The notes under the pieces: generated by a model
Told to the model about the DNA's origin: nothing
Seen by the model: the letters and a program-made list of their open reading frames with translations, nothing else
Databases searched by the model: none
Assembly (NCBI RefSeq): GCF_001424755.1
Contig: NZ_LMRF01000001.1
Location: forward strand, 517,294-581,293
DNA from: Marmoricola sp. Leaf446
Lineage (GTDB): Bacteria; Actinomycetota; Actinomycetes; Propionibacteriales; Nocardioidaceae
Direction: 5' to 3'
Length of the DNA: 64,000 nt
Made by a program: the position numbers and the translations under genes
Part shown: piece after piece, positions 7,676-30,335 of the stretch
Layout of the letters: each line of letters opens with the position of its first letter
Numbering within the stretch: position 1 is the first letter of the stretch

Positions 7676-8623
7676 TCAGCCGACCGAGCGGTCCCCCTGG
7701 GGGTCCTCGATGTCGGAGCGCAGCTGGCCCAGGATGCGGGCGAGCAGCCGGGAGACCTGCATCTGCGTGACACCGATGTCCTCGGCGATCTCGCGCTGGG
7801 TCAGGCCGTCGAAGAAGCGCAGCTGCAGCACGCGGCGGTCGCGGTCGCCGAGGCGGCGCACGACGGGACCGAGCATGACCCGGGCCTCCGCGGCGTCGCC
7901 GTCGTTCTCCTGACCCGGCAGCACGTCGCCCAGGGCGATGGGGGAGTCCTGTCCGACGGGCACGTCCAGCGAGGCCGGCGTGAAGCAGCCGAGCGCGCTC
8001 ATGGCCTCGGACACCTCGCTCTCGGCGACGCCGAGGCGCTCGGCGATCTCCTTGGGCTCCGGGTCGCGACCCAGGCTGTTGGCGAGGTCGCCGCGCGCCG
8101 GGGCGATGCGGGCCTGGAGCTCCTGGATCCGGCGCGGGGGCCGGACCATCCACCCGGCGTCGCGGAAGTGGCGCTTGACCTCGCCCCGCATGGTCGGCAC
8201 GGCGAAGCTGACGAACTCGTGGCCCGTGGAGCGGTCGAAGCGTCGCGCCGCCTTGACGAGTGCGAGCCGGGCGACCTGGAGCAGGTCGTCGGTGGGGATG
8301 CCGCGCGAGCGGAACCGGGCGACCACCGCGGTGGCCAGGCCGAGGTTGAGCTCGACCACGCGGTCGAGCAGTCGACGGCGCTCCTCGGGGTCCTCGGTCG
8401 CCTCGGCCTCGGCGAAGAGGTCGGCGGTGTCGTGGGCACGCTCCTGGCGACGTGCCTCCGAGGGCGTCGTGGGGCGGTCGTCGAGCGAGGCGGAGGCCTG
8501 GGCGGGCGCGCGCGGCTCGCGTGTCATCGTCGTCGTCGGCGCCTCGTGGGGGGCGGCGATGGTCGTGGCAGAGGTGGAGGTGTCGGAGAGGTCAGAGTGC
8601 GTGGGGCGGTCGATGTCGTCCAT
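7676..8623 (-). CDS. RNA polymerase sigma factor, SigB/SigF/SigG subfamily
   Basis: A 315-residue sigma-70 family protein of the stress/sporulation-type group: about 75 low-complexity N-terminal residues, region 2 (GIPTDDLLQVARLALVKAARRFD), region 3 (RIQELQARIAPARGDLANSLG) and a region 4 helix-turn-helix (LTQREIAEDIGVTQMQVSRLL). Family members are usually held by an anti-sigma kinase (RsbW-like), but no such gene is adjacent. The Ser/Thr-rich leader is longer than in most relatives. The start could be later, for example at the Met near residue 33. Confidence 0.93.
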   Translation of the reverse strand: MDDIDRPTHSDLSDTSTSATTIAAPHEAPTTTMTREPRAPAQASASLDDRPTTPSEARRQERAHDTADLFAEAEATEDPEERRRLLDRVVELNLGLATAVVARFRSRGIPTDDLLQVARLALVKAARRFDRSTGHEFVSFAVPTMRGEVKRHFRDAGWMVRPPRRIQELQARIAPARGDLANSLGRDPEPKEIAERLGVAESEVSEAMSALGCFTPASLDVPVGQDSPIALGDVLPGQENDGDAAEARVMLGPVVRRLGDRDRRVLQLRFFDGLTQREIAEDIGVTQMQVSRLLARILGQLRSDIEDPQGDRSVG

Positions 8624-8791: not shown

Positions 8792-9433
8792 TCACCCCCC
8801 TGCGGGTGAATTTCCGGTGAGGTGGGCCCTCAGGCCGATCATCGCGTCGTCCAGCAGGCCGCGCAGGTCGGCGTCCGGGTGACGCAGCCACAGCTCGTAC
8901 GCCGCGAGGGCCAGCGCGAGGGAGACCTGGCTCACCACCTCGGGCAGCAGGTCGTGCGGCCCGACCCCGTGCCGGCGGGCCACGAACGCGGCGATCACGG
9001 CCCGCCACTCGGCGTACCGCAGCACCGAGTGGGCCTGCAGCTCCGGCGTCATCAGGATCAGTCGCATCCGCTCGCGGTGCCCCGGCTCGGCCCCGTCGGG
9101 GAAGTCGTTGAAGGACAGCACGGCCCGGTGCACCGCCTCGTGGACCGGCAGGTCCTCGGGCAGGGCGGCCAGGGTGTCGCGGAAGCCGGCCAGGGTGCGG
9201 TCGAAGCGCCCCCACGGGATGTCGTTCTTGGAGCGGTAGTAGCGGAACAGGGTGCGGCGGCCGACCCCGACCTCGGCCGCGATCATGTCGAGGGTGGTGC
9301 CGGCGAAGCCGTGGGTGGCGAAGAGCCGGAAGGCCGCTCGCTCGATGGCGCCGTGGCTGGTCGCGACGGGGCGTCCGAGGGCCGAGCTGCTGCTGCGCGC
9401 CGGCGTGGCGCCGGACGGGGACCGCTCCACCAT
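8792..9433 (-). CDS. mftR: mycofactocin system transcriptional regulator MftR (TetR family)
   Basis: A 213-residue TetR-type repressor. The N-terminal helix-turn-helix spans about residues 25-70 (AAFRLFATHGFAGTTLDMIAAEVGVGRRTLFRYY), followed by an all-helical ligand domain. It is divergent from mftA, the standard position of MftR, and 114 bases separate the starts. The known family represses the mft genes and is relieved by acyl-CoA ligands. The ATG at 9431-9433 gives a normal N-terminus. The palindrome CTGTGG-N6-CCACAG in the shared promoter is a likely operator. Confidence 0.9.
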   Translation of the reverse strand: MVERSPSGATPARSSSSALGRPVATSHGAIERAAFRLFATHGFAGTTLDMIAAEVGVGRRTLFRYYRSKNDIPWGRFDRTLAGFRDTLAALPEDLPVHEAVHRAVLSFNDFPDGAEPGHRERMRLILMTPELQAHSVLRYAEWRAVIAAFVARRHGVGPHDLLPEVVSQVSLALALAAYELWLRHPDADLRGLLDDAMIGLRAHLTGNSPAGG

Positions 9434-9464
9434 GAGGGGCGCGAATCTACCCGACCGGAGGGGT

Positions 9465-9506
9465 GACTTTCCGCACTTGGTGCCAATACTGTGGCGCGAA
9501 CCACAG
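9465..9506 (+). promoter_or_regulatory. candidate mftA promoter with overlapping MftR operator
   Basis: TGACTT (9465-9470) and TACTGT (9487-9492), 16 bases apart, resemble a -35/-10 pair reading toward mftA. The perfect inverted repeat CTGTGG (9489-9494), six bases, CCACAG (9501-9506) overlaps the -10, where a TetR-type repressor would block polymerase. The protein-DNA contact is inference from position and symmetry. Confidence 0.5.
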
Positions 9507-9547
9507 CCCGGGCACGGGGTCCGGGCGGGCGACGTCCAGGAGGACCC

Positions 9548-9673
9548 ATGACCCCCGAGCAGCCCAGCACCACCGCGGAGCAGAGCGCACCGGCCGACGC
9601 CGCCACCGGGGAGGTCGTCACCGACAGCCTCGTCGAGGAGGTCTCCATCGACGGCATGTGCGGCGTCTACTGA
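9548..9673 (+). CDS. mftA: mycofactocin precursor peptide MftA
   Basis: A 41-residue ribosomally made precursor, too short for standard ORF finding. It ends in IDGMCGVY, the invariant MftA tail in which the last Val-Tyr pair is decarboxylated and cross-linked to form the redox cofactor mycofactocin. The leader (TDSLVEEVSIDG) is the acidic part recognised by MftB. The ATG at 9548 follows CAGGAGGACC, a strong ribosome-binding site. The stop codon overlaps the mftB start (TGATG), so the pair is translationally coupled. Confidence 0.97.
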   Translation: MTPEQPSTTAEQSAPADAATGEVVTDSLVEEVSIDGMCGVY

Positions 9674-9987
9674 TGCTCGACGAGCCCTGGACCCTGTCAC
9701 CGGCGGTGGCGTTGCGACCCGAGCCGTTCGGGGCGCTGGCCTACCACTTCGGCAACCGCAAGCTGAGCTTCCTCAAGCGGCCCGAGCTGGTGACGGTGGT
9801 CCGGGGACTCGGCGACCACGCGGACGTGCGCGCCGCGCTGCTCGCCGCCGGCGTCCCCGAGCCGCAGCACGCCTCGTACGTCGAGGCGCTGCGCGGCCTG
9901 GCCGCCACCGACATGATCCGTCCCCGTACGACCTCCCGCGAGACCTCCTCTCAGGTCTCCTCCCAGACCGCTGGAGCCCCGGCATGA
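9673..9987 (+). CDS. mftB: mycofactocin biosynthesis chaperone MftB
   Basis: A 104-residue PqqD-like (RiPP recognition element) protein. It binds the MftA leader and presents the C-terminus to MftC. The conserved core includes LRPEPFGALAYHFGNRKLSFL and a winged-helix end. The C-terminal 20 residues are Ser/Thr-rich and probably disordered. It overlaps mftA by one base and mftC by four (ATGA), a tightly coupled order seen in other MFT clusters. Confidence 0.95.
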   Translation: MLDEPWTLSPAVALRPEPFGALAYHFGNRKLSFLKRPELVTVVRGLGDHADVRAALLAAGVPEPQHASYVEALRGLAATDMIRPRTTSRETSSQVSSQTAGAPA

Positions 9988-11294
9988 CCCTCACGCCCGC
10001 CCGCCCCTCCGCGCGCACCGCCCCGCTCGTGGCCCGTTCCGAGCGACCGCAGGGCGGCACCCTGGTGGAGCAGTTCGAGTTCGGCCTCGACGCCCCGATC
10101 TGCCTGACCTGGGAGCTGACCTACGCCTGCAACCTCGCCTGCGCCCACTGCCTGTCCTCCTCGGGCAAGCGCGACCCGCGCGAGCTGAGCACCGAGCAGT
10201 GCGAGGCCGTGATCGACGAGCTGCAGCGGATGCAGGTCTTCTACGTCAACATCGGCGGCGGCGAGCCGACGATCCGGCCCGACTTCTGGCACCTGCTGGA
10301 GTACGCCGTGGACCACCAGGTCGGCGTGAAGTTCTCCACCAACGGGGTGCGCATCACCCCCGAGCGGGCGCGCTTCCTGGCCTCCACCGACTACGTCGAC
10401 GTGCAGATCTCGCTCGACGGCGCGACCGCCGAGGTCAACGACTACGTGCGCGGGCCGGGCTCCTTCGACACCGCCCTGACGGCGCTGCAGAACCTCCAGG
10501 ACGCCGGGTTCGAGGACGCCAAGATCTCGGTCGTCTGCACCCGGCAGAACATCGGCCAGCTCGACGACTTCAAGGCCATCGCCGACCGGTTCGGCGCCAC
10601 CCTGCGGCTGACCCGGCTCCGGCCCTCGGGCCGCGGCGCCGACGTGTGGGACGAGCTGCACCCGCTGCCCGAGCAGCAGCGCGTGCTCTACGACTGGCTC
10701 GTGGCCCACGGCGAGGGCGTGCTGACCGGGGACTCCTTCTTCCACCTCGCGGCCTTCGGCGAGGCGCTGCCCGGCCTCAACCTGTGCGGCGCCGGACGGG
10801 TGGTGTGCCTGATCGACCCCGTCGGCGACGTCTACGCCTGCCCCTTCGCGATCCACGACAACTTCCTCGCCGGCAACCTGCTGGACGAGGGCGGCTTCCA
10901 GCGGGTCTGGCAGGACTCCGAGCTGTTCACCGACCTGCGGTCGCCGCAGACCGGCGGCGCGTGCGCCAGCTGCTCGGCGTACGACGCGTGCCGCGGGGGC
11001 TGCATGGCCGCGAAGTTCTTCACCGGCCTGCCGCTCGACGGCCCCGACCCGGAGTGCGTCAAGGGCAACGGCGAGTTCGCCCTGGCCGGCGAGCGCACCA
11101 TCCCCGCGCCCAGCCAGGACCACTCGCGCACGATGCCGACGCGCAACCAGCCGGTGATGCTGACGCTGCAGCGCACGCCCCCGGTGAGTGCCTGCGCCGA
11201 GAGCCCGCTGGCGGGGTTCGACCCGGTCAGCCCGCTGGGCGACGGGGCCGCGCCGGTGGTCTCCTCGGGCGGCTGCGGCTGCGGGGACCACTGA
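9984..11294 (+). CDS. mftC: mycofactocin radical SAM maturase MftC
   Basis: A 436-residue radical SAM/SPASM enzyme. The SAM-binding [4Fe-4S] motif is CNLACAHC (CxxxCxxC, near residues 49-56), and GGGEP follows. C-terminal SPASM cysteines for auxiliary clusters lie around CASCSAYDACRGGC. It carries out oxidative decarboxylation of the terminal tyrosine of MftA and then the Val-Tyr cross-link. It has a tail of about 55 residues beyond the SPASM domain that ends in a Gly-Cys-rich GGCGCGDH, which might bind metal. Confidence 0.97.
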   Translation: MTLTPARPSARTAPLVARSERPQGGTLVEQFEFGLDAPICLTWELTYACNLACAHCLSSSGKRDPRELSTEQCEAVIDELQRMQVFYVNIGGGEPTIRPDFWHLLEYAVDHQVGVKFSTNGVRITPERARFLASTDYVDVQISLDGATAEVNDYVRGPGSFDTALTALQNLQDAGFEDAKISVVCTRQNIGQLDDFKAIADRFGATLRLTRLRPSGRGADVWDELHPLPEQQRVLYDWLVAHGEGVLTGDSFFHLAAFGEALPGLNLCGAGRVVCLIDPVGDVYACPFAIHDNFLAGNLLDEGGFQRVWQDSELFTDLRSPQTGGACASCSAYDACRGGCMAAKFFTGLPLDGPDPECVKGNGEFALAGERTIPAPSQDHSRTMPTRNQPVMLTLQRTPPVSACAESPLAGFDPVSPLGDGAAPVVSSGGCGCGDH

Positions 11295-11295
11295 G

Positions 11296-12579
11296 ATGGC
11301 CACCCCGGCGATCTTCTCCAGGATCGAGAACCCCTGGAAGCAGAACCCCTGGTTCGAGTCCGTCGCCGTCGCCCAGCAGCGGGCGCGCAAGCGGCTGCCC
11401 AAGCCGGTGTACGGCGCCCTGGTCGCGGGCTCCGAGCGCGGCCAGACCATCGCCGACAACCAGGCGGCGTTCGCCGAGCTCGGGATGGCGCCGCACGTCG
11501 CCGGCCACCAGGCCGAGCGGTCGCTCGGCACCACGGTGATGGGCCAGTCGATCTCGCTGCCGGTGATCATGAGCCCGACCGGCGTCCAGGCCGTGCACCC
11601 CGACGGCGAGGTCGCCGTCGCACGGGCCGCCGCCGCGCGGGGCACCGTGATCGGGCTGTCCAACTTCGCCTCCAAGTCGGTGGAGGAGGTGGTGGCGGCC
11701 AACCCGCAGACCTTCTTCCAGATGTACTGGACCGGCGACCGCGACACCATGGTGCAGCGGATGCAGCGCGCCCACGCCGCCGGCTCCCAGGGCCTGATCG
11801 CCACCCTCGACTGGTCGTTCTCGATGGGCCGCGACTGGGGCAGCCCCGAGATCCCCGAGAAGGTCGACCTCAAGACGATGGTGCGGATGGCGCCGCAGGT
11901 CGCGCTGCGGCCGCGGTGGCTGTGGGAGTTCGGCAAGACCGGGCAGATCCCCGACCTGACCGCGCCCAACCTCGCCCCGCCGGGGCAGGACAAGGGACCG
12001 ACCTTCTTCGGCGCCTACTACGAGTGGATGACCACGACCCCGCCGACGTGGGACGACGTGGCCTGGATGCGCGAGACCTGGCACCAGATCTCCGGCAAGC
12101 CGTTCATGCTCAAGGGCGTCTGCCGCGTCGACGACGCCCTGCGCGCGGTCGACGCGGGCGTCACCGCGATCTCGGTGTCCAACCACGGCGGCAACAACCT
12201 CGACGGCACACCGGCCGCGATCCGCTGCCTGCACCCGATCGCGTCCGCGGTCGGCGACCAGCTCGAGGTCGTCATGGACGGCGGCGTACGCCGTGGCTCC
12301 GACGTCGTCAAGGCGCTGGCCATGGGGGCCCGTGCGGTGATGATCGGCCGCGCCTACCTCTGGGGCCTCGCCGCCAACGGCCAGGCCGGCGTGGAGAACG
12401 TCCTGGACGTTCTCCGCAGCGGCATCGACTCCGCGCTGCTCGGCATGGGGCTGTCCTCGATCGACCAGCTCACCCCCGAGCTGCTCGTGGTGCCCGAGGG
12501 CTTCCACCGCACCCTCGGTGCCCCCGGCAGCCACGGCGCCGCGGCCACCTCGGCGCCGCGGGCCACCGCCGCGTCGTGA
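11296..12579 (+). CDS. mftD: pre-mycofactocin synthase MftD
   Basis: A 427-residue FMN-dependent member of the alpha-hydroxy-acid oxidase (lactate dehydrogenase-like) family. The active-site His lies in SNHGGNNLDGTPA, where the usual Arg after HGG is Asn. FMN phosphate binding is by MDGGVRRGSDVVKALAMGA. It oxidatively deaminates the 3-amino-5-(4-hydroxybenzyl)-4,4-dimethyl-pyrrolidinone intermediate to the redox-active alpha-keto amide PMFT. It starts one base after the mftC stop. The C-terminus ends in an Ala/Thr-rich tail. Confidence 0.96.
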   Translation: MATPAIFSRIENPWKQNPWFESVAVAQQRARKRLPKPVYGALVAGSERGQTIADNQAAFAELGMAPHVAGHQAERSLGTTVMGQSISLPVIMSPTGVQAVHPDGEVAVARAAAARGTVIGLSNFASKSVEEVVAANPQTFFQMYWTGDRDTMVQRMQRAHAAGSQGLIATLDWSFSMGRDWGSPEIPEKVDLKTMVRMAPQVALRPRWLWEFGKTGQIPDLTAPNLAPPGQDKGPTFFGAYYEWMTTTPPTWDDVAWMRETWHQISGKPFMLKGVCRVDDALRAVDAGVTAISVSNHGGNNLDGTPAAIRCLHPIASAVGDQLEVVMDGGVRRGSDVVKALAMGARAVMIGRAYLWGLAANGQAGVENVLDVLRSGIDSALLGMGLSSIDQLTPELLVVPEGFHRTLGAPGSHGAAATSAPRATAAS

Positions 12580-12597
12580 CGACCTGGTGACCCGCCC

Positions 12598-13398
12598 ATG
12601 ACCGGTCGCGCGCTCCGGCTCGCCGACCTGACCTGGCCGGAGCTGCCACCGTCCGCCACGGTGGTGGTCCCGGTCGGGTCGCTGGAGCAGCACGGCCCGC
12701 ACCTCCCGCTCGAGACCGACGCCCTGGTCGCCGAGGCGGTCGCGGTGCGGGCCGTCGCGGCGCTCGACCGCGACGACGTGCTGGTCGCCCCCGTCGTGGC
12801 GTACGGCGCCAGCGGCGAGCACCAGCACTTCGCCGGCACCGTCTCGACCGGCACCCCCGTGCTGCACCTGCTGCTCGTCGAGCTGGTGCGCTCGCTGCGC
12901 ACCTGGGCGGCGCGGGTGGTGCTGGTCAATGGTCACGGCGGCAACCTCGACGCCGTCCGCGGCGCGGTCGGCCAGCTGGTCGACGAGGGCCACGACGTGA
13001 CCTGGGCGCCGTGCGCCGCTGTCGGCGCCGACCTGCACGCCGGCCGCACCGAGACCTCGCTGCTGCTCCACCTGCGCCCCGACCTGGTGCGGCTCGACCG
13101 TGCCGTCGCCGGGGCCACCGCGTCCGCCGCCGAGCTGCTGCCGCTGCTGCGTGCCGGCGGCGTGGTCGCGGTCTCGGCCAACGGCGTGCTCGGCGACCCC
13201 GCCGGCGCGAGCGCCGAGGAGGGCCGCGCGCTGCTGGAGGAGATGGTGGGTCGGGTCGTGGCCGTGATCTCCTCGTCGGTCGAGCCCGCTCCGTCGCCGG
13301 TCGAGCCCGCTCCGTCGTCGGTCGAGCCCGCTCCCTCGTCGGTCGAGCCCGCTCCCTCGTCGGTCGAGCCCGTCGAGACCCCGCAGGGCGCCCGGTGA
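12598..13398 (+). CDS. mftE: mycofactocin precursor peptidase MftE (creatininase family)
   Basis: A 266-residue metal-dependent peptidase that releases the cross-linked Val-Tyr product from processed MftA. Creatininase-fold motifs are GSLEQHGPHLPLETD (25-39), NGHGGNLDAV and HAGRTETSLL. The family normally ends soon after the catalytic domain. Here a 35-residue tail made of five SSVEPAP-type repeats is added. The stop overlaps the next start (GTGA). Confidence 0.93.
   Translation: MTGRALRLADLTWPELPPSATVVVPVGSLEQHGPHLPLETDALVAEAVAVRAVAALDRDDVLVAPVVAYGASGEHQHFAGTVSTGTPVLHLLLVELVRSLRTWAARVVLVNGHGGNLDAVRGAVGQLVDEGHDVTWAPCAAVGADLHAGRTETSLLLHLRPDLVRLDRAVAGATASAAELLPLLRAGGVVAVSANGVLGDPAGASAEEGRALLEEMVGRVVAVISSSVEPAPSPVEPAPSSVEPAPSSVEPAPSSVEPVETPQGAR
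13273..13377 (+). repeat. 21-bp tandem repeat, five units, inside mftE
   Basis: Five head-to-tail 21-bp units of TCGTCGGTCGAGCCCGCTCC type, the last one diverged, encode SSVEPAP repeats at the MftE C-terminus. The unit is a whole number of codons, so copy-number change would not break the frame. Confidence 0.9.
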
Positions 13399-14168
13399 GG
13401 GTCGCGCTCGTCACCGGCGCGGCCCGCGGGATCGGCGCCGCGACCGTCAACCACCTCGCCCGGGACGGGTGGGCGGTGCTGGCGCTGGACGCGTGCGCCG
13501 GGCCCGACGCGGCGCCGTACGCCCTGCCCGACGTGGCCGACCTCGAGGCCGTCGCCGCCCCGCACGCCGAGGTCGAGGCGGTGGTGGCCGACGTCCGCGA
13601 CCGTCCCGCGCTGGACGCGGCGGTCGCCCGCGCGCTCGACCGGTGGGGCCGCCTCGACGCGGTCGTGGCCTGCGCGGGCATCGTCGGCGGCGGGCGGCCG
13701 CTGTGGGAGACCGACGAGGCCGAGCTCGACCTGCTGTGGGACGTCGACGCCAAGGGCGTCTGGCACACCGCGGCGGCCACGGTGCCGGCGCTGCTGGCCG
13801 GGCCCGACCCGTCGGGCGCGCGGTTCGTGGCCGTCGCGTCGGCGGCGGGGACGCACGGGCTGTTCCGGATGGCGGCCTACAACGCGGCCAAGCACGCGGT
13901 CGTCGGCATCGTGCGCGGCCTGGCCGCCGACCTCGTGGGCACCGGCGTCACCGCCGTGGCGGTCTCGCCGGGCTCGACCGACACCGCGATGCTGCGCGCC
14001 ACCGCCGCGTTGTACGACGCCACCACCGACGACCTCGCCGCCCACCAGCTGCTGCGCCGCGCGCTCCGGCCGGAGGAGGTGGCCGCCACGCTGGTCTTCT
14101 GCTGCTCGCGCGAGGCCGCGGTGCTCAACGGCAGCGTGGTCAGCGCCGACGGCGGGTTCCAGGCGTGA
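13395..14168 (+). CDS. mycofactocin-coupled SDR family oxidoreductase
   Basis: A 257-residue short-chain dehydrogenase/reductase. The nicotinamide-binding TGAARGIGAA is at residues 7-16, the catalytic Ser is in VASAAG and YNAAKHA supplies Tyr and Lys. Its place between mftE and mftF, overlapping both by four bases (GTGA each side), marks it as one of the SDRs tied to mycofactocin. These keep NAD(P) tightly bound and need MFT as the external electron acceptor. The alcohol substrate is unknown. Confidence 0.85.
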   Translation: MRVALVTGAARGIGAATVNHLARDGWAVLALDACAGPDAAPYALPDVADLEAVAAPHAEVEAVVADVRDRPALDAAVARALDRWGRLDAVVACAGIVGGGRPLWETDEAELDLLWDVDAKGVWHTAAATVPALLAGPDPSGARFVAVASAAGTHGLFRMAAYNAAKHAVVGIVRGLAADLVGTGVTAVAVSPGSTDTAMLRATAALYDATTDDLAAHQLLRRALRPEEVAATLVFCCSREAAVLNGSVVSADGGFQA

Positions 14169-15607
14169 GCGCCGCCCTGGCCGAGCCCGCCGACGACGGT
14201 CGGCTCCCCGGTGGGTTCGAGGTGCGGGTGCGCTCCGACGTACGCCGGGTCGAGGACGGCCGCACCCTGCTCGGCGGCTCGCCGCTGCGCTCGCTGCGGC
14301 TCTCGCCCCGCGCCCGGCTCGCCCTCGACGGCGACCGGCTGGTGGTCGCCGATGCCACCTCGGAGGAGCTCGCGCGCCGGCTGCTGGGCGCCAACCTCGC
14401 CGACCCGGTGCTGTCCGGGGTGCGGGTCGCGCCGTCCGAGCTGACCGTGGTGGTCCCGGTCCGCGACCGTCCCGAGCAGCTCGAGCGCGCGCTCGCCCCG
14501 TTGGCCGGGCTGCGGCTGCTCGTGGTCGACGACGCCTCGCACGACCCGGCCGCGGTCGCCGCGGTGGCGGCGCGGCACGGCGCTCGTGTGCTCCCGCTGC
14601 CGGTCAACCTCGGCCCCGCGGGGGCACGCAACGCCGGGCTGCGCGAGGTGCGCACGGCGTACGTCGGCTTCGTCGACTCCGACGTCCAGGCCGAGAGCGC
14701 CATGCTGCTCCGGCTAGCCCGCCACCTCGCCGACCCGCGCGTCGCGCTGGTCGGGCCGCTGGTGCGGAGCCGGGCCAGGTCGGTGCCACCGCGGTGGTTC
14801 GAGCGGTACGACGAGTGCTCGTCCTCACTCGCCCTGGGCAGTCGCAGCTGCGCGGTCGCGCCGGGCGCCGCCGTGGCGTGGCTGCCCAGCGCCTGCCTGG
14901 TCGGCCGCACCGACCTCCTGGGCGACGGCTTCACCGAGGCGATGCGGGTCGGCGAGGACGTCGACCTGGTGTGGCGGCTGGTCGGGGCGGGGCGGGTGGT
15001 CCGCTACGAGGCGGGCGAGACCGCGTGGCACGACGCCCGGACGACCGTGGGGGAGTGGGCGGGCCGGAAGTACCTCTACGGCACCGGCGGCGCGTCCCTC
15101 GCGGCCCGCCACGGCGCTGCCGGCGCGGTCGCGGTGCTCTCGCCCGCGATGGCGGTCGCGGGTGCGGCCGTGCTGCTGCGCCGGCGCTGGTCGCTCCCGG
15201 TGGTCGCGCTCGGCCTGGCCTGGGCCTTCCAGCAGCTGGTGCGGGTGCTGCCCGACGTGCCCGAGCGCCCGGCCCTGGCGGCCTCGGTCGCCGCTCGCGG
15301 TCTCGGCTGGGCCGTTCGTCAGGAGTCCGCCCTGCTGCTGCGCCACTGGTGGCCGCTCGGGCTGCTCGCCCTCGGCTCCCGGTCGGGTCGTCGGGCCCTG
15401 GTCTCCGCGGTCGCCGTCGACCTGGTGGTGCACCGTGACGTCGTACGCCGCACCGGGCTGCTGCGCACCCTCGTGGCCCGCCGCGTCGACGACCTCGCCT
15501 ACGGCGCCGGCTTGTGGGCCGGGGCGGTGCGGGAGCGCGAGTGGCGCGGGCTCGCCGTACGCGTGGTGGGGCGGCGGCGTCCTCCAGCCCCACCCGCTGG
15601 ACGATGA
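14165..15607 (+). CDS. mftF: mycofactocin glycosyltransferase MftF
   Basis: A 480-residue protein with a GT2 glycosyltransferase domain (TVVVPVRDRPEQLERAL near 100, donor-metal motif DSD near 178-180) and a C-terminal region with hydrophobic segments. A roughly 90-residue N-terminal domain precedes the transferase. MftF adds the beta-1,4-glucose oligosaccharide to mycofactocin. It is the last gene of this strand's operon. The GMC oxidoreductase gene mftG, often next to mftF, is not in this window. Confidence 0.92.
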   Translation: MSAALAEPADDGRLPGGFEVRVRSDVRRVEDGRTLLGGSPLRSLRLSPRARLALDGDRLVVADATSEELARRLLGANLADPVLSGVRVAPSELTVVVPVRDRPEQLERALAPLAGLRLLVVDDASHDPAAVAAVAARHGARVLPLPVNLGPAGARNAGLREVRTAYVGFVDSDVQAESAMLLRLARHLADPRVALVGPLVRSRARSVPPRWFERYDECSSSLALGSRSCAVAPGAAVAWLPSACLVGRTDLLGDGFTEAMRVGEDVDLVWRLVGAGRVVRYEAGETAWHDARTTVGEWAGRKYLYGTGGASLAARHGAAGAVAVLSPAMAVAGAAVLLRRRWSLPVVALGLAWAFQQLVRVLPDVPERPALAASVAARGLGWAVRQESALLLRHWWPLGLLALGSRSGRRALVSAVAVDLVVHRDVVRRTGLLRTLVARRVDDLAYGAGLWAGAVREREWRGLAVRVVGRRRPPAPPAGR

Positions 15608-15707
15608 CGCCGGGCTGATCGCGACTCGGGCACAGCCGGCTCTGCTGGATCCGAGCCCCCGGTCGGTCCCCCCAGCCGTACGTCGCCCACGGTCGCCGCT
15701 CACGCGA

Positions 15708-15808
15708 CGTACGGACAACTCGGGCGGGCGATGGGGGAAAACTGCCCGTGGTTGACCGTTATGCCGGACCTCGCGGGCAGTTTCACCGGCCAGCCGGTGA
15801 AATTGCCC
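15708..15808 (-). repeat. dispersed palindromic element, family A copy 2 (inverted)
   Basis: Reverse-strand copy of the element at 3938-4039. The 16-bp hairpin is at 15775-15808, with one change that leaves a G-U pair. AAAACTGCCC at 15738-15747 is the complement of the downstream GGGCAGTTTT, spaced 27 bases from the hairpin. The outer CGTACGGACAAC starts at 15708. It lies between the convergent mftF and CoxE-like genes, three bases from the latter's stop. Confidence 0.85.
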
Positions 15809-15810
15809 CC

Positions 15811-16635
15811 TCACCGCCCCAACAGCTGGTCCAGCAACCGCGGCAGGTCGTCGACGGACTCGATGGCGGCGATGCGGGCGCCCGCCTCCCGGGCGACGCG
15901 GCGGGCCTCCTCGTCGTCGGAGGCGGGGGCGATGACGACGAGCTCCTCCAGCGCCCGGGCGGCGGGGACGGCGTCGACCTCGTCGGTGGCGCGGCAGTCC
16001 GAGAGCACGATGGTGATCCGGCGGGTGGCGCGGGCGCCGCGGAGCTGGTCGGCGGCGGCGCGGAAGGCGGCGTCCATCGAGGTCATGCCGTGCCCGCGCA
16101 GTCCCAGGACGCGCTGCACCGTGCGCAGCGGGGGCGAGGGCGCGTGCAGGTCGAGCAGCACCTCCGGCGTCCGGTCGAAGGCGATCACCGACAGCTCGCC
16201 CTCGGCCCGCAGCGCGCACGCGGCGGCGGCCATGGCGGCGGTGACCAGCCGGGAGCCGTCCATCGAGCCTGACCGGTCGACGAGCAGGCACAGCGCGGTG
16301 CGCGGCCGGTGCCAGGTGGTGGCGGTGAGCTCCTCCAGGCCGGGCGGCCGCTGCTCCCCGCGGGCCTGGCCGATCGCCTCCATCGAGGCGTCGACGTCGA
16401 GGTCGCCGCCGCGGTCGGCGGGGGAGCGTCGCAGCCGGCCGGCACCGGACCCGCCGCGGGTGCCGGAGCGGGCACGCTCCAGCACCAGGCGCGGCACCAG
16501 CGCCTGCACCTTGGCGCGCAGCGCGGGGTCGGTGGCCGTCGACATCTGCATCAGCAGCGGCAGCACGTCGTCGGGGTCGTCGGCGACGGCGTCGCGCACC
16601 GCGGCGGTGTCGAGCTCCCCGACCTCGGGCGACAT
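15811..16635 (-). CDS. VWA domain protein, CoxE-like
   Basis: A protein of at least 274 residues with a C-terminal von Willebrand factor A domain. The metal-ion site DRSGSMDGSR (DxSxS) is followed by the Thr in GMTSMDAA. Such CoxE-like proteins pair with MoxR-type ATPases and help insert cofactors or metals into oxidoreductases. The partner ATPase is directly upstream. The ATG at 16635 leaves a 122-base gap to it, while the frame stays open back to the ATPase stop without an ATG or GTG. A start at a TTG or CTG further upstream, with about 40 more residues, is therefore possible. Confidence 0.8.
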   Translation of the reverse strand: MSPEVGELDTAAVRDAVADDPDDVLPLLMQMSTATDPALRAKVQALVPRLVLERARSGTRGGSGAGRLRRSPADRGGDLDVDASMEAIGQARGEQRPPGLEELTATTWHRPRTALCLLVDRSGSMDGSRLVTAAMAAAACALRAEGELSVIAFDRTPEVLLDLHAPSPPLRTVQRVLGLRGHGMTSMDAAFRAAADQLRGARATRRITIVLSDCRATDEVDAVPAARALEELVVIAPASDDEEARRVAREAGARIAAIESVDDLPRLLDQLLGR

Positions 16636-16757
16636 CTCCTCGAAGCGGGCGTGCCGGGACAGCTCGGCGCGTCCGGTGGTGCGTTGCGGCCGGCCGCGCC
16701 GCGAGGGCTGCGGCTTCGGCGGAGCAGCGGAGCCGCCCGCCCCGGCCGGGGGCGGGC

Positions 16758-17651
16758 TCAGGCTTCCCCCGGCGGGTCACCACCCTCGCTCGGCGGAGCC
16801 TCGTCCGAGGACGGCTCGGCGCCGAACGTCGCGACGTACAGCTCCTCCACGACCTCCTCGGCCGTCCGCGACGACGACTCGTCGACCTTGACCCGGCCGC
16901 TGAGCGCCACGAAGGCGGCGTCGAGGCCGGTGCGCCAGTGCGTCGGGGGTACGCCGCGCACCAGCGCCAGCTCGTGGGTCAGGCCGGCCAGGTCGATGGT
17001 GCCGCGCACCGACGAGCCGACCCGCAGCTCGGGGTGCTCGCGCGTGGCCCGCACCAGCGCCACCGCCTTGGCGGCCCACTCCGGGGAGTCGATCGGCGCC
17101 TGCTGGGTCAGGATCGCCTGCTCGGACTCGGCCGACTGGTAGCCCATCACGATGCGGCAGGTCCGGTCGTAGACCGCGCTGGAGACCCGGGCGGTGCCGA
17201 CCGCGTCGTAGGGGTTCATCGCGGCGACGATGCCGAAGCCCGGCTCGGCGCGCACCGTGCCGAGACGAGGTACGGCGATCTCCCGCTCGCTCATCACCGT
17301 GAGCAGCACGTTGAGCGTCTCCTCGGGGACGCGGTTGAGCTCCTCGAGGTAGAGCAGCCCGGCGCCGCGCATGGCGTCGAGTAGCGGACCGTCGACGAAC
17401 ACGTCGGGGCGGTAGCCCCGGTCGAGGACCAGGGCGGGGTCGAAGTGACCCACCAGGCGGGCGGGGGTCAGCTCGGCGTTGCCCTCGACCAGCACCAGCG
17501 CGGAGTCGCGACGACTGGCCAGGGCGCGCAGCAGGGTGGACTTGCCCGTGCCGGGCGGTCCCTCGAGGACCACATGGGCGCCCGCGCGGAGCGCGGCCTC
17601 GAGCAGCTCGGTCTCACGTCGGCGGTCGACGACCGGGGCGGGTGTTCCCAC
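16758..17651 (-). CDS. MoxR-like AAA+ ATPase
   Basis: A 297-residue AAA+ ATPase. Walker A is GPPGTGKSTLL near residues 31-41, Walker B LLYLEELNRVPEE, sensor I AAMNPYD. This is the MoxR/CoxD type that works with VWA partners as chaperones for enzyme maturation. The GTG at 17649-17651 is chosen since the coding frame has no ATG near the ADH stop; it starts 42 bases after the ADH ends. Gene order ADH-ATPase-VWA on one strand suggests the pair serves the dehydrogenase (inference). Confidence 0.85.
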   Translation of the reverse strand: MGTPAPVVDRRRETELLEAALRAGAHVVLEGPPGTGKSTLLRALASRRDSALVLVEGNAELTPARLVGHFDPALVLDRGYRPDVFVDGPLLDAMRGAGLLYLEELNRVPEETLNVLLTVMSEREIAVPRLGTVRAEPGFGIVAAMNPYDAVGTARVSSAVYDRTCRIVMGYQSAESEQAILTQQAPIDSPEWAAKAVALVRATREHPELRVGSSVRGTIDLAGLTHELALVRGVPPTHWRTGLDAAFVALSGRVKVDESSSRTAEEVVEELYVATFGAEPSSDEAPPSEGGDPPGEA

Positions 17652-17692
17652 GCCCCGGTCGCCGAGCCCGCTGTCGACGCGGCGGACGGTGC

Positions 17693-18805
17693 TCAGTGCT
17701 CGTGCACCACGATGCCGCGGACGTTCTTGCCCTCGAGCAGGTCGTCGTAGCCCTCGTTGACCTGGTCGAGGGTGTAGGTCCTCGTGATGATCTCGTCGAG
17801 CTTGATGTCGCCCGACTGGTAGAGGCCGAGGATGCGCGGGATGTCGGTGGTCGGGTTGCAGTCGCCGAACAGGCTGCCGCGCAGCTGCTTGCGGTAGAGC
17901 GTCATCACCGAGCCGGAGAGCTGGATGTTCTCCATCTCGATCTTGTTCAGGCCGGTCAGCACCACGACGCCGCCCTTGCCGACGGAGTTGAAGCCGTCGC
18001 GGACGATCTCGGAGGTCATCAGGCCGGGGGTGAGGATGGCCGAGTCGGCCATCTGGCCGCGGGTCAGGTTGGTGACCGTCTCCATCGCCTCCTCGGCGCT
18101 GCCGAAGGCGTGGGTGGCGCCGAGCTCCATCGCCTTCTCGCGCTTGTTGGCGAGCGGGTCGATGGCGATGACGTTCTTGGCGCCGGCGAGCGCCGCGCCC
18201 TGCACGGCGTTGATGCCGATGCCGCCGATGCCCATGACGACCACGGTCTGGCCGGCCTTGACCTCGGCGGTGTTGACGGCCGCGCCCCACCCAGTGGGGA
18301 CGCCGCAGCCGACGAGCACGGCCTTGTCGAGGGGCAGGTCGTCGTCGACCTTGACGCAGGAGTTCTGGTGGATCACGCCGTACTGGCTGAAGGTGCCGAG
18401 CATGCACATGGCGCCGTACTGCCCGCGCGGGCCGGTGATCGGGAACCGCTCGCCGGGCAGGTAGCCCTCGAGGATGGTGGCGCCCATGTCGCAGATCGAC
18501 TGCTGGCCGTTGGCGCAGTAGCGGCACGAGCCGCAGTTGGGGATGAACGAGCAGACCACGTGGTCGCCGACCTTGACGCGCGAGACGCCGGGACCGACCT
18601 CCTCGATGATGCCTGCGCCCTCGTGGCCCAGCACCATCGGCAGCCGCGCCTCGAGGTCGCCGTGGGCGACGTGGACGTCGGAGTGGCACAGGCCGGCGTA
18701 GGTGTAGCGGATCAGGACCTCGCCCTCCTTCGGCTTGTCCAGGTCGAGCTCCTCGATCTCGATCCGCTTGCCGGCTTCGATGACGACTGCTGCCTTGGTC
18801 TTCAC
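17693..18805 (-). CDS. NDMA-dependent (mycofactocin-associated) zinc alcohol dehydrogenase
   Basis: A 370-residue medium-chain zinc alcohol dehydrogenase. Catalytic zinc residues are in GLCHSDVHVAHGD and GHEGAG; the structural zinc site is CGSCRYCANGQQSIC near 91-105. The Rossmann motif is GIGGIGINAVQGA. The sequence is of the nicotinoprotein class whose NAD stays bound and which is assayed with N,N-dimethyl-4-nitrosoaniline. Comparative genomics ties this class to mycofactocin, and the MFT cluster is next door. The GTG at 18803-18805 has AGGAG ten bases upstream. Confidence 0.92.
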   Translation of the reverse strand: MKTKAAVVIEAGKRIEIEELDLDKPKEGEVLIRYTYAGLCHSDVHVAHGDLEARLPMVLGHEGAGIIEEVGPGVSRVKVGDHVVCSFIPNCGSCRYCANGQQSICDMGATILEGYLPGERFPITGPRGQYGAMCMLGTFSQYGVIHQNSCVKVDDDLPLDKAVLVGCGVPTGWGAAVNTAEVKAGQTVVVMGIGGIGINAVQGAALAGAKNVIAIDPLANKREKAMELGATHAFGSAEEAMETVTNLTRGQMADSAILTPGLMTSEIVRDGFNSVGKGGVVVLTGLNKIEMENIQLSGSVMTLYRKQLRGSLFGDCNPTTDIPRILGLYQSGDIKLDEIITRTYTLDQVNEGYDDLLEGKNVRGIVVHEH

Positions 18806-18921
18806 CTGGGTGACTCCTCTGGTCGGGCGGCGTGGGTCCCCGCCTGCGCGGGGGTGGACGACGTACGCCGGACCGGCGCGCGTGACCTCCGCCACACTCA
18901 CACCTCCGCCGGGTGCCTGGC

Positions 18922-18953
18922 TGTTCAACAACTGGACATTCGGCGGGTGGACA
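18922..18953. promoter_or_regulatory. candidate operator between ADH and its activator
   Basis: TGTTCA (18922-18927), five bases, TGGACA (18933-18938) is an imperfect inverted repeat. TGGACA recurs at 18948-18953. It lies in the 187-base divergent gap between the alcohol dehydrogenase and the AcoR-like regulator. This patch is AT-richer than the rest of the gap. Binding by the regulator is inference. Confidence 0.4.
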
Positions 18954-18992
18954 GCGCGGCGTAGTGTGACCGGCACCACAGGGGGTGACGCG

Positions 18993-20618
18993 GTGGACCT
19001 GATCGGCACCGAGCCGGGACTGCGCGCGCCCATCGCCGACTCGTGGCGCCGCGCATCACTCGCCGGCGTCGACCCCGACTCCGCCCTCGACGCGCTGCCG
19101 CTGCGCGACGTCGACCGGACCTCGCCGCTGCTGGCCGCCGCCACCCCGGTCCTCGACGACCTCAACGAGCGGCTCCGCGAGACGATGTTCGCCACGCTGC
19201 TCGTGGACCGCGAGGGCCACGTCGCCCGTCGCTGGTGCGGCGACCGTGCCGCGGCCGGGGCGCTCGACGACCTCGGCGTCGACGTCGGGGTCGGCCTGCT
19301 GGAGGACACCGTCGGCACCAACGCGCTCGGCACCGCCCTGGAGACGCGACGGGCGATCTCGGTGCACGGCGAGGAGCACTTCGCGGTGCCGCTCAAGCGG
19401 TTCAGCTGCTACGGCCACCCGATCGTGCACCCGACCACGAAGCGCATCGAGGGCGTCCTCGACATCACCGCGCTCGTCGACCGGGCCAGCCCGCTGCTGC
19501 CCCCGCTGGTGGCGCGGGCGGTGGCCGACATTGAGCAGCGGCTGCTCGACGGCAGCCGGATCTCTGAGAAGCAGCTGCTCCTCGCCTTCCAGGTCGCCTC
19601 GGCACGGCGACGTCCCGTCGTGGCCGTGGGGGAGGACCTGATGCTGAGCAACCACGCGGCGATGGACCTGCTGGGGGCCACCGACACGGCGGTGCTGCGG
19701 ATGATCGGCCTCGACCTCGCCCGGGGCCACACCACCGACCTCGACCTGACCCTGGCCAGCGGCACCCCGGTGCGGGTGCGGGCCGAGCGCGTCACCGGGG
19801 CGCGCCACGGCATGCTGCTCCACCTCGAGCCCGCCCTGTCGCGGCCGCGGCCGGCGCCCGCCGTCGCCGGCCCGGCCTCCGACGCCGACGCCCCGGTCCT
19901 CGTCGCCGGTGGACCCGGCACCGGCCGGTCCGCACGGGCCCGCGCCCTGGCGCAGGAGCCGGTCTCGGTGCTCACCGCGGCCAGCGCGCTGCTCGACGGC
20001 AGCGATGCCTGGGCCCGCGACTTCGCCTCGATGGTGCGTGCGGGGCAGGGCACGGTCTGCGTCGACGGCCTCGACCTGCTGCCCGAGGAGCTGCTCGACC
20101 TCGTGTCCTCCCACGTCGCCACGCAGCGCCCGCCGCGGCTCGTGCTGGTCTCGGGACCGGTCGACGCGCTCACCGGTCGCGCCGCCGCGCTGGCCGCCGA
20201 GTGCCTGCGCCGCGAGGAGCTGCCGCCGCTCTCGGCCCGGCTGACCGAGCTGCCGGCGCTGGTCGCCGCCATGCTGCTCGACCTCGGCGCCCCCGCCTCG
20301 CTCCACCTCACGCCCGCCGCCCTCGCGGCGCTCTCGGCCCACCCCTGGCCGGGCAACCTGCGCGAGCTGCGGGTCGTCGTGCGCCACGCCGCCGCCCGGC
20401 GCTCGACCGGCGCGGTCACGGTCGAGGACCTGCCCGAGCAGTACCGCACCGGCGGCTCCACCCACCACCTCGCGCCCATCGAGCGCGCCGAGCGCGACGC
20501 CATCGTCGGGGCGCTGCGCGAGCACGGCGGCAACAAGCTGCGCACCGCGCGCACCCTCGGCATCTCCCGCACCACGCTCTACGCCAAGATGCGCACGCTG
20601 CGGATCACGCACTACTGA
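18993..20618 (+). CDS. AcoR-like GAF/Fis-type transcriptional regulator
   Basis: A 541-residue regulator. An N-terminal GAF-like sensor region (about 40-190) is followed by a PAS-like stretch, an ATPase-like domain and a C-terminal Fis-type helix-turn-helix (LREHGGNKLRTARTLGISRTTLYAKM). It resembles AcoR/MimR activators of alcohol and ketone metabolism. The ATPase domain is shortened: a P-loop-like GGPGTGRS remains but the GAFTGA loop that contacts sigma-54 is absent. It probably acts with an ordinary sigma factor. Start GTG 18993 has AGGGGG upstream; GTG 18966 is an alternative. Divergent from the ADH, its likely target. Confidence 0.85.
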   Translation: MDLIGTEPGLRAPIADSWRRASLAGVDPDSALDALPLRDVDRTSPLLAAATPVLDDLNERLRETMFATLLVDREGHVARRWCGDRAAAGALDDLGVDVGVGLLEDTVGTNALGTALETRRAISVHGEEHFAVPLKRFSCYGHPIVHPTTKRIEGVLDITALVDRASPLLPPLVARAVADIEQRLLDGSRISEKQLLLAFQVASARRRPVVAVGEDLMLSNHAAMDLLGATDTAVLRMIGLDLARGHTTDLDLTLASGTPVRVRAERVTGARHGMLLHLEPALSRPRPAPAVAGPASDADAPVLVAGGPGTGRSARARALAQEPVSVLTAASALLDGSDAWARDFASMVRAGQGTVCVDGLDLLPEELLDLVSSHVATQRPPRLVLVSGPVDALTGRAAALAAECLRREELPPLSARLTELPALVAAMLLDLGAPASLHLTPAALAALSAHPWPGNLRELRVVVRHAAARRSTGAVTVEDLPEQYRTGGSTHHLAPIERAERDAIVGALREHGGNKLRTARTLGISRTTLYAKMRTLRITHY

Positions 20619-21781: not shown

Positions 21782-21997
21782 GTGATCTTCTGCCACTGCG
21801 CCGTCGTGGGCGACCGCGAGGTCAAGCAGGCCGTGGACGCCGGCGCGCGCACGGTCTCCCAGGTCTGCCGCTCGACGGGCGCCGGCCAGGAGTGCGGGTC
21901 GTGCGTCTTCGCCGTGCGTCGCGTGGTGTGCGAGCATCTCGAGCAGGTGGCCGTGATGGCCGCCGCCGACCCGGAGGTGGACGTTGCAGCCAGTTAG
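21782..21997 (+). CDS. bfd: bacterioferritin-associated ferredoxin
   Basis: A 71-residue [2Fe-2S] protein. Cys4, Cys6, Cys38 and Cys41 are at exactly the positions of the Escherichia coli Bfd cluster ligands. Bfd donates electrons to heme in bacterioferritin so that stored iron is reduced and released. The GTG start at 21782 follows GGAGCCCCC. It overlaps bfr by 14 bases and sits behind an iron box, so storage and release proteins are made together. Confidence 0.93.
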   Translation: MIFCHCAVVGDREVKQAVDAGARTVSQVCRSTGAGQECGSCVFAVRRVVCEHLEQVAVMAAADPEVDVAAS

Positions 21998-22475
21998 CCC
22001 GCGCGTGGTGGAGCTCCTCAACGAGGCGCTCACCTTCGAGCTCACCGTGACCAACACCTACTTCCTGCACGCCCGGATGCTCGACAACTGGGGCCTGCCC
22101 AAGCTCGGCAAGGTCTTCTACGCGCTCTCCATCGACGAGATGAAGGACGCGGACGCGATCATCAACCGCATCCTGATGTTCGAGGGCCACCCCAACCTGC
22201 AGCGCCTGGGCAACATCACCGTCGGCGAGACGCCCGAGGAGATGCTCGCGCTCGCCTACGAGAGCGAGAAGGCGGCCGTGAAGCAGTTCAACGGCGCCGC
22301 CCAGGAGTGCCACGACCTCGGCGACCACGGCACGGCCGCGGTGTTCGAGGAGTACGTCCGCGACGAGGAGCAGCACGCCGAGTGGTTCGAGGCGCAGCTC
22401 GAGGCGATCCAGCGCGTCGGCGTCCAGGGCTACCTCGCCCAGCAGATCGACGCGAGCACCCCTCCAGGCTCCTGA
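21984..22475 (+). CDS. bfr: bacterioferritin
   Basis: A 163-residue four-helix-bundle iron-storage protein that forms 24-mers. The heme-ligand Met is in IDEMKDAD. Ferroxidase ligands Glu19, the Glu before that Met, the Glu in YESEK and Glu/His of RDEEQHAEW are present. The position of E. coli His54, normally EMKHAD, is Asp here, so one di-iron ligand is changed. The start is a rare TTG at 21984 behind GGAGGTGG and inside the bfd coding sequence. Confidence 0.95.
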
Positions 22476-25636: not shown

Positions 25637-26067
25637 TGAGCGTGCTCGACCTGGAGACCGCCCGCGGCATCATCGCCGGGGCCCGTGCCCACGGCAGCTC
25701 CGCGGGGTTCAAGCCGCTGACCGTCGTGGTCCTCGACGCCGGCGGCCACGTGGTCGCCGTCGAGCGCGAGGACGGCGCGTCGATGAAGCGCTTCGAGATC
25801 GGGTTCGGCAAGGCCTACGGCGCCCTGTCGCTCGGCATGGGCTCGCGCTCGATCATGGCCCGGGCCGAGCAGCAGGCGTTCTTCGTCGCGGCCGTCACCT
25901 CCGCCGTCGGCGGGACGCTGGTCCCGGTGCCGGGCGGGGTGCTCGTCCGCGACGAGGGCGGCGACCTGCTGGGCGCGGTGGGCGTCACCGGCGACACCTC
26001 CGACAACGACGAGGCCGCGGCGGTGGCCGGCATCGAGGGTGCCGGTCTCACCCCCCAGGTCGACTGA
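25636..26067 (+). CDS. glcG: GlcG/HbpS family heme-binding-type protein
   Basis: A 143-residue member of the DUF336 (HbpS/GlcG) family, with VVVLDAGGHVVAVEREDGAS and a Gly-rich C-terminal half (VPGGVLVRDEGGDLLGAVGV). The fold forms octamers and binds heme or cobalamin in some members. In E. coli glcG lies between glycolate oxidase and malate synthase genes with unclear role; the same neighbourhood occurs here. ATGA overlap with glcB indicates coupled translation. Confidence 0.88.
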   Translation: MSVLDLETARGIIAGARAHGSSAGFKPLTVVVLDAGGHVVAVEREDGASMKRFEIGFGKAYGALSLGMGSRSIMARAEQQAFFVAAVTSAVGGTLVPVPGGVLVRDEGGDLLGAVGVTGDTSDNDEAAAVAGIEGAGLTPQVD

Positions 26068-26077
26068 GGAGCAGGCG

Positions 26078-27580: not shown

Positions 27581-27582
27581 GG

Positions 27583-28839: not shown

Positions 28840-28841
28840 CC

Positions 28842-30260: not shown

Positions 30261-30335
30261 GCCCACACTTCAGCGCAACGCACCGCACCACCCGCCCGCA
30301 CCACCACGACCTCACCACGAACAGGGAGTAGTCAC

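Follow-up and report, generated by a model that had tools for sequence, protein, structure and literature searches.

A MoxR-VWA gene pair that accompanies mycofactocin genes in Actinomycetota and probably serves nicotinoprotein dehydrogenases

A 64,000-nucleotide stretch of the 3.8 Mb Marmoricola sp. Leaf446 genome (contig NZ_LMRF01000001.1, positions 517,294 to 581,293; the whole stretch is hereafter called the window) carries a mycofactocin cluster facing a gene for an alcohol dehydrogenase (ADH), which is followed on its own strand by two genes, the first coding for an AAA+ ATPase of the MoxR type and the second for a small von Willebrand factor A (VWA) protein. The question raised by this locus is what the last two genes do beside the dehydrogenase. 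Mycofactocin enzymes are thought to keep nicotinamide adenine dinucleotide (NAD) permanently bound, and how they come to be loaded, stay active or undergo repair is, to our knowledge, nowhere described. The pair is probably a dedicated helper reshaping mycofactocin-type dehydrogenases, and the probability that MoxR and VWA form one ATP-driven remodelling machine for mycofactocin-dependent nicotinoprotein dehydrogenases is put at about 0.6.

Window gene families were scored with NCBIfam and Pfam models at curated cut-offs. The ADH gene (17693..18805, minus strand, 370 aa) belongs to the nicotinoproteins dependent on N,N-dimethyl-4-nitrosoaniline (NDMA), with 524.7 bits for TIGR03989 (cut-off 440). 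The MoxR gene (16758..17651, minus strand) codes for a 297-aa protein with the P-loop GPPGTGKST and 87.7 bits for PF07728 (cut-off 22), PF07726 being likewise above its Pfam cut-off, and the VWA gene (15811..16635, minus strand) codes for a 274-aa CoxE-like adaptor with 43.1 bits for PF05762 (gathering cut-off 26.4). The three scores bear out the series of NDMA-type ADH, MoxR ATPase and VWA/CoxE protein on one strand that had been given in a preliminary description of this DNA.

A survey of genomes for co-occurrence of the MoxR/CoxE clade with mycofactocin genes, proposed in that description, was run on 296 genomes sampled from the phylum and on 393 sampled from the class of the window, the two samples sharing genomes. 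The phylum survey used the window VWA protein as query, and its line was placed post hoc in the gap between the weakest accepted best match (74.8 bits) and the next genome (46.1 bits); the class survey used a profile of the VWA family, with 113.2 bits for the weakest accepted match and 52.8 for the next. The VWA family was found in 24 of the 296 genomes, all 24 of which possess mftC above cut-off against a background of 46/296, and in 21 of the 393, where MftB is present in 21/21 against 108/393. The hypergeometric probabilities are 6e-23 for the phylum and 4e-13 for the class, values which overstate the evidence since the genomes are taken as independent and yet are related, and since some genomes belong to both samples. 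As a control, genomes having weaker VWA matches only were considered: mftC is carried by 1/21 of them in the phylum sample, namely G255, in which a contig-end fragment of the VWA family is present, and MftB by 3/35 in the class sample (G and L numbers are our labels for genomes and loci). Within a single genus represented by four genomes (g129), the two traits occur together in one genome and are both missing from the other three. An ADH passing the TIGR03989 cut-off is present in 24/24 pair genomes. The relation of the pair to the mycofactocin genes is thus an only-if relation whose converse fails in the genomes sampled, the same relation by which dehydrogenases were tied to mycofactocin in the text of Haft 2011 as far as it was available (PMC3023750). 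The mftC gene of one pair-bearing genome is split in two pieces (G208:C1:4043545-4044547), and its mycofactocin status is uncertain.

The neighborhood of the pair was analysed in the best 80 of 159 relatives found in named genomes with a MoxR profile, a choice which favors near relatives; the labels ADH and SDR (short-chain dehydrogenase/reductase) stand for tblastn homologues of the corresponding window proteins. Janibacter sp. Soil728, Amycolatopsis jejuensis and Kribbia dieselivorans are among the organisms in which the locus was found. Directly upstream of MoxR there is an ADH in 59 of the 80 loci, an SDR in five, mftE in three and another gene in 12, the position being off the contig in one, and the linked ADHs are 44-88% identical to that of the window. 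VWA directly follows MoxR in 76/80, the remaining four lying near a contig end. The examined stretch includes some of mftA-F in 48/80 loci, and MftB is above cut-off in 38/40 and 37/39 of the genomes in two lists, G306 being in both and the genome of L130 left out. As for the four genomes below the MftB cut-off, mftF adjoins the pair at L052, mftE and mftF adjoin it at L125, L118 has a partial MftB match and an adjoining mftF, and L072 comes from a 1.5 Mb assembly. Among 116 MoxR copies, comprising the loci read at greater length and the window, a few of which come from one genome arrived at in two ways, the upstream gene is an ADH in 83, an SDR in 13, mftE in three and a second MoxR in two; 14 have none of these and one is at an edge.

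The order ADH-MoxR-VWA recurs across the phylum and hence is no chance pairing. The pair can also stand inside the biosynthetic genes themselves, as in the orders mftC-ADH-MoxR-VWA-mftD-mftE at L050 and SDRs-MoxR-VWA-mftE-mftF at L230. The SDRs beside it belong to the same sphere: nine of the ten scanned pass TIGR03971 or TIGR04504, both of which are mycofactocin-coupled models. The preliminary description had linked the pair to mycofactocin-type dehydrogenases, and this holds both as co-occurrence and in the position of the pair, mostly directly behind a dehydrogenase; a pair occurring mostly without mft genes or beside unrelated oxidoreductases is not what was found. As an association, the link is strongly supported. 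A part in maturation, by loading NAD, zinc or mycofactocin contact into the ADH, was likewise put forward there as a possibility. Direct cooperation between the two partners is indicated by the presence of MoxR and VWA in a single stop-free open frame, and therefore in a single protein, in 22/110 neighbor pairs (near-identical loci counted), the two being separate genes in the window. Clustering of neighbors within about 6 kb in the 80 loci revealed no constant third gene beside the pair; the recurrent neighbors other than the pair, ADH, SDR and mft genes were LytR-CpsA-Psr (16), an AMP-binding enzyme (14), electron transfer flavoprotein (ETF)-domain proteins (five) and smaller groups.

Some arrangements in the relatives are worth describing separately. 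At L229, L230, L047, L239 and L240, arrays of SDR genes, the scanned members of which are mycofactocin-coupled, are followed by the pair, with tandem MoxR genes in two cases and with the L230 array located within an mft cluster. In Pseudonocardia (L081, L086, L088, L115), the pair is fused in a single frame, has no adjoining dehydrogenase and stands divergent from the gene of an AMP-binding enzyme, MftB being present in the genomes. Three metagenome records titled Bifidobacterium breve (L064, L074, L085) carry mycofactocin loci, but their sequences fall among other actinobacteria in the trees and the names look wrong.

Is the pair bound to one particular dehydrogenase? The ADH set consisted of 162 sequences with at least 40% identity to the window ADH over 250 residues and a length of 330-430 residues, 17 of which were dropped as duplicates. 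On the tree of the 145 distinct ADHs, 78 of them pair-linked, the linked state requires 24 changes, at least 19 of which are forced by starred branches, and a single ADH orthologue as the fixed partner was dropped on this ground. On the tree of 114 MoxR sequences (three rows unlabelled; L098 and L119 scored as SDR), the ADH label changes 12 times (10 forced) and the SDR label five times (four forced). These repeated changes indicate that the pair is bound to a kind of enzyme and not to one orthologue, and that it has moved between a zinc-type and a metal-free dehydrogenase family.

The metal ion-dependent adhesion site (MIDAS) of the VWA protein, DxSxS-T-D, is represented by D120, S122, S124, T185 and D213, all invariant in a 66-row alignment, and this site together with the gathering score places the protein in VWA_CoxE. 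The GPPGTGK motif of MoxR is invariant in a 55-row alignment, and in another alignment three more distant rows have S in place of the last G; the P-loop, the AAA_5/AAA_3 domain and the genetic pairing with a VWA protein place it among the MoxR AAA+ ATPases. Single-chain AlphaFold2 models had mean confidence scores (pLDDT) of 90.8 for VWA and 90.7 for MoxR. The top PDB matches of the VWA model are chain G of the NorQD complexes 9qhe, 9qhd and 9qh6, which we take to be NorD, the best match having E 2.5e-10, a template-modelling (TM) score of 0.52 and a root-mean-square deviation near 9, with a different domain placement. The MoxR model matches AfCbbQ2 first (6l1q, E 1.5e-19) and NorQ next. At the level of sequence profiles, NorQ, CbbQ and CobS come first among the named prokaryotic solved relatives of MoxR, midasin has a still higher score, and CobT is among the top matches of VWA.

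Three characterized systems are relevant for comparison. CbbQ/CbbO is similar in the top fold match of MoxR, in the VWA partner with a MIDAS and in the adjacency of the pair to its client enzyme, but that client is Rubisco, whereas the one proposed here is a nicotinoprotein, and residues up to 759 are named for CbbO in the available part of PMC5437159, compared with 274 aa for the VWA protein here. NorQ/NorD, whose chain G is matched first by the VWA model and whose NorQ is matched by the MoxR model, differs in its task, which is to insert iron into nitric oxide reductase, and in the size of NorD, for which passages of PMC9976466 give about 70 kDa and an additional domain at the N-terminus. 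Neither Rubisco nor nor genes are present among the window genes scanned and the VWA protein has 274 aa, so the pair does not belong to CbbQO or NorQD. CoxD/CoxE shares the PF05762 VWA_CoxE domain, of which the window protein is a weak member with 43 bits. CoxE likewise has a short architecture. The CoxD/CoxE gene context is not present here, there being no carbon monoxide (CO) dehydrogenase genes among the genes scanned from 4239 to 25633, and no CO dehydrogenase cluster was noticed among the 25 commonest neighbor clusters of the 80 loci, which are mostly unannotated. The best NCBIfam matches of the window MoxR are GvpN (TIGR02640, 74.2 bits) and the MadB-type AAA ATPases (57.3 bits), far below the respective cut-offs of 266.8 and 475, and its relatives behave likewise; orthology by name with GvpN or CoxE was dropped on these cut-offs and scores. 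The same genome encodes three more PF05762 VWA proteins (G000:C3:212713, G000:C2:195088 and G000:C2:45191, L241-L243), with 118-177 bits as opposed to 43 for the window protein.

Based on these likenesses, it is quite reasonable to suggest a way in which the remodelling machine might work. The VWA protein would plug into a MoxR hexamer and grip the client via its MIDAS, and ATP hydrolysis would twist or open the client, which may be the adjacent ADH here and other such ADHs or mycofactocin-coupled SDRs in the relatives. The purpose would be to open the buried NAD site, either maturing the enzyme or rescuing it when blocked, as CbbQO does with Rubisco; this site is the presumed target because tightly held NAD served by mycofactocin, and not a metal, is what both client classes share. 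MoxR-VWA machines already characterized have a client on which they work. For NorQD, it has been proposed that nitric oxide reductase is opened to admit iron, a finger of the VWA protein sitting in the AAA pore and the MIDAS being thought to touch the client (passages of PMC13036017 and PMC9976466). CbbQO frees inhibited Rubisco, for which it depends on the MIDAS and on an acidic residue of the client (parts of PMC5437159). In the TIGR03971 SDRs, according to sections of PMC5264612, NAD is buried by an insertion together with an ordered loop, and its exchange is unseen on the nuclear magnetic resonance time scale.

A more specific version, which is offered tentatively and considered possible rather than probable, is that of a nicotinoprotein activase: a dedicated MoxR-VWA motor would pry open locked-NAD dehydrogenases to replace NAD that is damaged, wrongly reduced or blocked by an inhibitor. 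It would have passed repeatedly between zinc ADHs and SDRs free of metal because its target is the state common to both, with NAD buried and served by mycofactocin. In the broader form, nicotinoprotein dehydrogenases probably add a new class of clients to a kind of machine already known, and if this is true, MoxR-VWA machines extend from metal centers and Rubisco to nicotinoproteins. The surveys add what appears to be a missing accessory system, occurring only with mycofactocin genes in the sampled genomes and not with all of them.

Several observations weigh against the pair being a dedicated remodelling helper. A full-length VWA match is absent in 22/46 mftC genomes (21 if the G255 fragment is counted), 11 of the 22 being supplied by family f4 of the window's class, and a TIGR03989 ADH is nevertheless above cut-off in 19/22, so that the pair is dispensable for this enzyme class in general. 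Family f4 may be Mycobacteriaceae; a plasmid search with one of its ADHs gave one match, at 53%. No dehydrogenase gene of either type and no mftE stands directly upstream in the 14/116 MoxR copies mentioned above, although an ADH, SDR or mft gene lies within 4 kb in five of the 14. The SDR at L098 passes no mycofactocin-coupled model (the ten SDRs scanned did not include that of L119). ETF-domain genes are found near the pair in 5/80 loci, which would fit electron transfer too. In the ADH, the helix that follows the strand binding NAD has a glutamate, which is present in 78/78 linked enzymes and often replaced by D, K, T or A in 33 free ones, and it scores 6 to 0 over 10 tree-independent linked/free pairs; however, a score of 7 to 0 is reached in two further columns, several hundred columns and several residue sets were tried, and as a docking residue it was rejected, not being significant under the tree-aware control. 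Finally, mycobacterial SDRs of one such family produced in Escherichia coli held NAD, as described in part of PMC5264612, and for this reason rescue, or maturation under certain conditions, is more likely than simple obligatory NAD loading.

Some of these observations favor other explanations. The pair might assist the mycofactocin-making enzymes or deliver the finished cofactor to the dehydrogenase, as could be expected from the genome-level co-occurrence with mft genes and from the location of the pair between an SDR or mftE and mftF at L229, L230, L093 and L099. This is unlikely given the 22/46 mftC genomes having no full-length match, the predominance of ADH as the neighbor (59/80) and the 32/80 stretches without mftA-F. 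The pair might otherwise be a scaffold by which the dehydrogenase, once reduced, is coupled to mycofactocin or the respiratory side, with no maturation involved. The ETF-domain genes slightly strengthen this explanation: they occur at L060, L094, L099, L100 and L108 and, outside the 80 loci, at L042, the domain having been found by scanning at L060, L094 and L099 and assigned through the same cluster at L100 and L108, and they lie near mftE or an SDR and the pair (L060:8305-9147, L094:8089-9057, L099:8172-9068, L042:6940-7770). RavA-ViaA has also been reported, in the available text of PMC10585395, to modulate fumarate reductase. Since the ETF cluster is absent from the other 75 neighborhoods (about 6 kb) and the conserved ATPase motifs indicate work and not static scaffolding, the scaffold is improbable as well. 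In their lineages, the ETF-domain proteins may serve the mycofactocin system as a redox partner.

Metal insertion would mean that the pair loads zinc into the ADH in the way in which NorQD handles iron and CoxD/CoxE the copper-molybdenum site of CO dehydrogenase, for which the latter pair is needed. NorQ/NorD is indeed among the closest characterized systems and the ADHs bear zinc-type motifs: a four-cysteine motif of the structural-zinc type is present in the window ADH and in 78/78 pair-linked enzymes. The same motif is also found in 33/33 free ADHs passing the length and identity filter, which have it without the pair, and the pair also stands behind SDRs that are mycofactocin-coupled and belong to a class not known to have a metal site. 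The association with SDRs disfavors zinc insertion as the shared function, and it was set aside as the most likely one; we hold metal insertion to be quite unlikely. A chaperone for stress in general, or a passenger that is merely co-regulated, in either case lacking a specific client, which the 14/116 MoxR copies lacking an upstream dehydrogenase or mftE might suggest, is highly improbable in view of the genome-level dependence on mycofactocin genes and the repeated linkage to ADH or SDR.

In the open-access literature, with most subscription papers and all preprints outside its scope, nothing was found linking mycofactocin to a MoxR-VWA pair, combining mycofactocin with von Willebrand or combining NDMA-dependent with MoxR; for broader searches this holds among the matches listed, a part of the total. 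Mycofactocin and MoxR occur as two separate rows of an expression table in the relevant part of PMC8191103 with no link drawn, the main text of Haft 2011 (PMC3023750) has no match for ATPase, AAA or von Willebrand, and the searched passages of the MftG paper (PMC11778925) contain no such pair. The client families TIGR03989, TIGR03971 and TIGR04504 are the enzymes linked to the pair here, and the first two were named as mycofactocin-linked dehydrogenases in the same main text of Haft 2011 (PMC3023750).

The rest of the locus is a full mycofactocin cluster, as the preliminary description had it: each gene lies at the place and on the strand given there and passes its NCBIfam cut-off, with MftA, B, C, D, E and F in a single cluster. 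The TetR-type regulator gene mftR (8792..9433, minus strand; TIGR03968, 245.9 bits, cut-off 224.9) is followed on the plus strand by mftA for the 41-aa precursor peptide with C-terminal MCGVY (9548..9673; TIGR03969, 51.7 bits, cut-off 25), mftB for the precursor-binding chaperone (9673..9987; TIGR03967, 113 bits, cut-off 33), mftC for the radical SAM maturase (9984..11294; TIGR03962, 647.6 bits, cut-off 265) and mftD for the pre-mycofactocin synthase (11296..12579; TIGR03966, 671 bits, cut-off 470.85). Next come, also on the plus strand, mftE for the peptidase (12598..13398; TIGR03964, 308.3 bits, cut-off 172), the gene of a mycofactocin-coupled SDR oxidoreductase (13395..14168; NF040491, 376.7 bits, cut-off 265; TIGR04504, 372.8 bits, cut-off 250) and mftF for the glycosyltransferase (14165..15607; TIGR03965, 325.7 bits, cut-off 280). 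A gene coding for a SigB/SigF/SigG-family sigma factor (7676-8623) is located just behind mftR on the same strand.

Facing these plus-strand genes, the minus strand is transcribed in the order ADH, MoxR, VWA, and because about 40 bases separate the ADH stop (17693) from the likely MoxR start (17651), the three genes probably share a single transcript. The ADH start is most likely 18805, since residue 34 of the longer call is the first one covered by the family model, and 17651 is the likely start of MoxR because homology in many relatives extends back to its residues 2-7; the proposed start sits 29 residues ahead of the P-loop stretch. The divergent intergenic region between the ADH and the regulator (18806..18992) is, by its position, the presumed promoter region. 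The regulator itself (18993..20618, plus strand), with a Fis-type helix-turn-helix (HTH), had been described as an AcoR-like activator: the AcoR-like label is fair, the matches being PF02954 (HTH_8) and PF25601 (AAA lid) only and the DhaR model giving 125 bits against a cut-off of 551, but identity as a sigma-54-dependent activator was dropped, since no sigma-54 activator core was found in it with Pfam at E 0.001.

Farther downstream, the window contains genes for malate synthase G, a 143-aa protein, GlcD-, GlcE- and GlcF-like proteins and a lactate/glycolate-type permease (23447-32096) with a divergent IclR-type regulator gene, i.e. a glycolate/glyoxylate operon near the mycofactocin locus; cut-offs are passed for malate synthase G, GlcF and the LctP family alone. 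According to passages of PMC11166783, the breakdown of ethylene glycol towards glycolate in Rhodococcus jostii RHA1 begins with EgaA, a dehydrogenase associated with mycofactocin. Because of this precedent and the glycolate genes nearby, ethylene glycol or glycolaldehyde may be guessed as a substrate here. Between the regulator and these genes, at 21782-22475, there is a bacterioferritin gene directly preceded by a gene for a BFD-like [2Fe-2S] protein.

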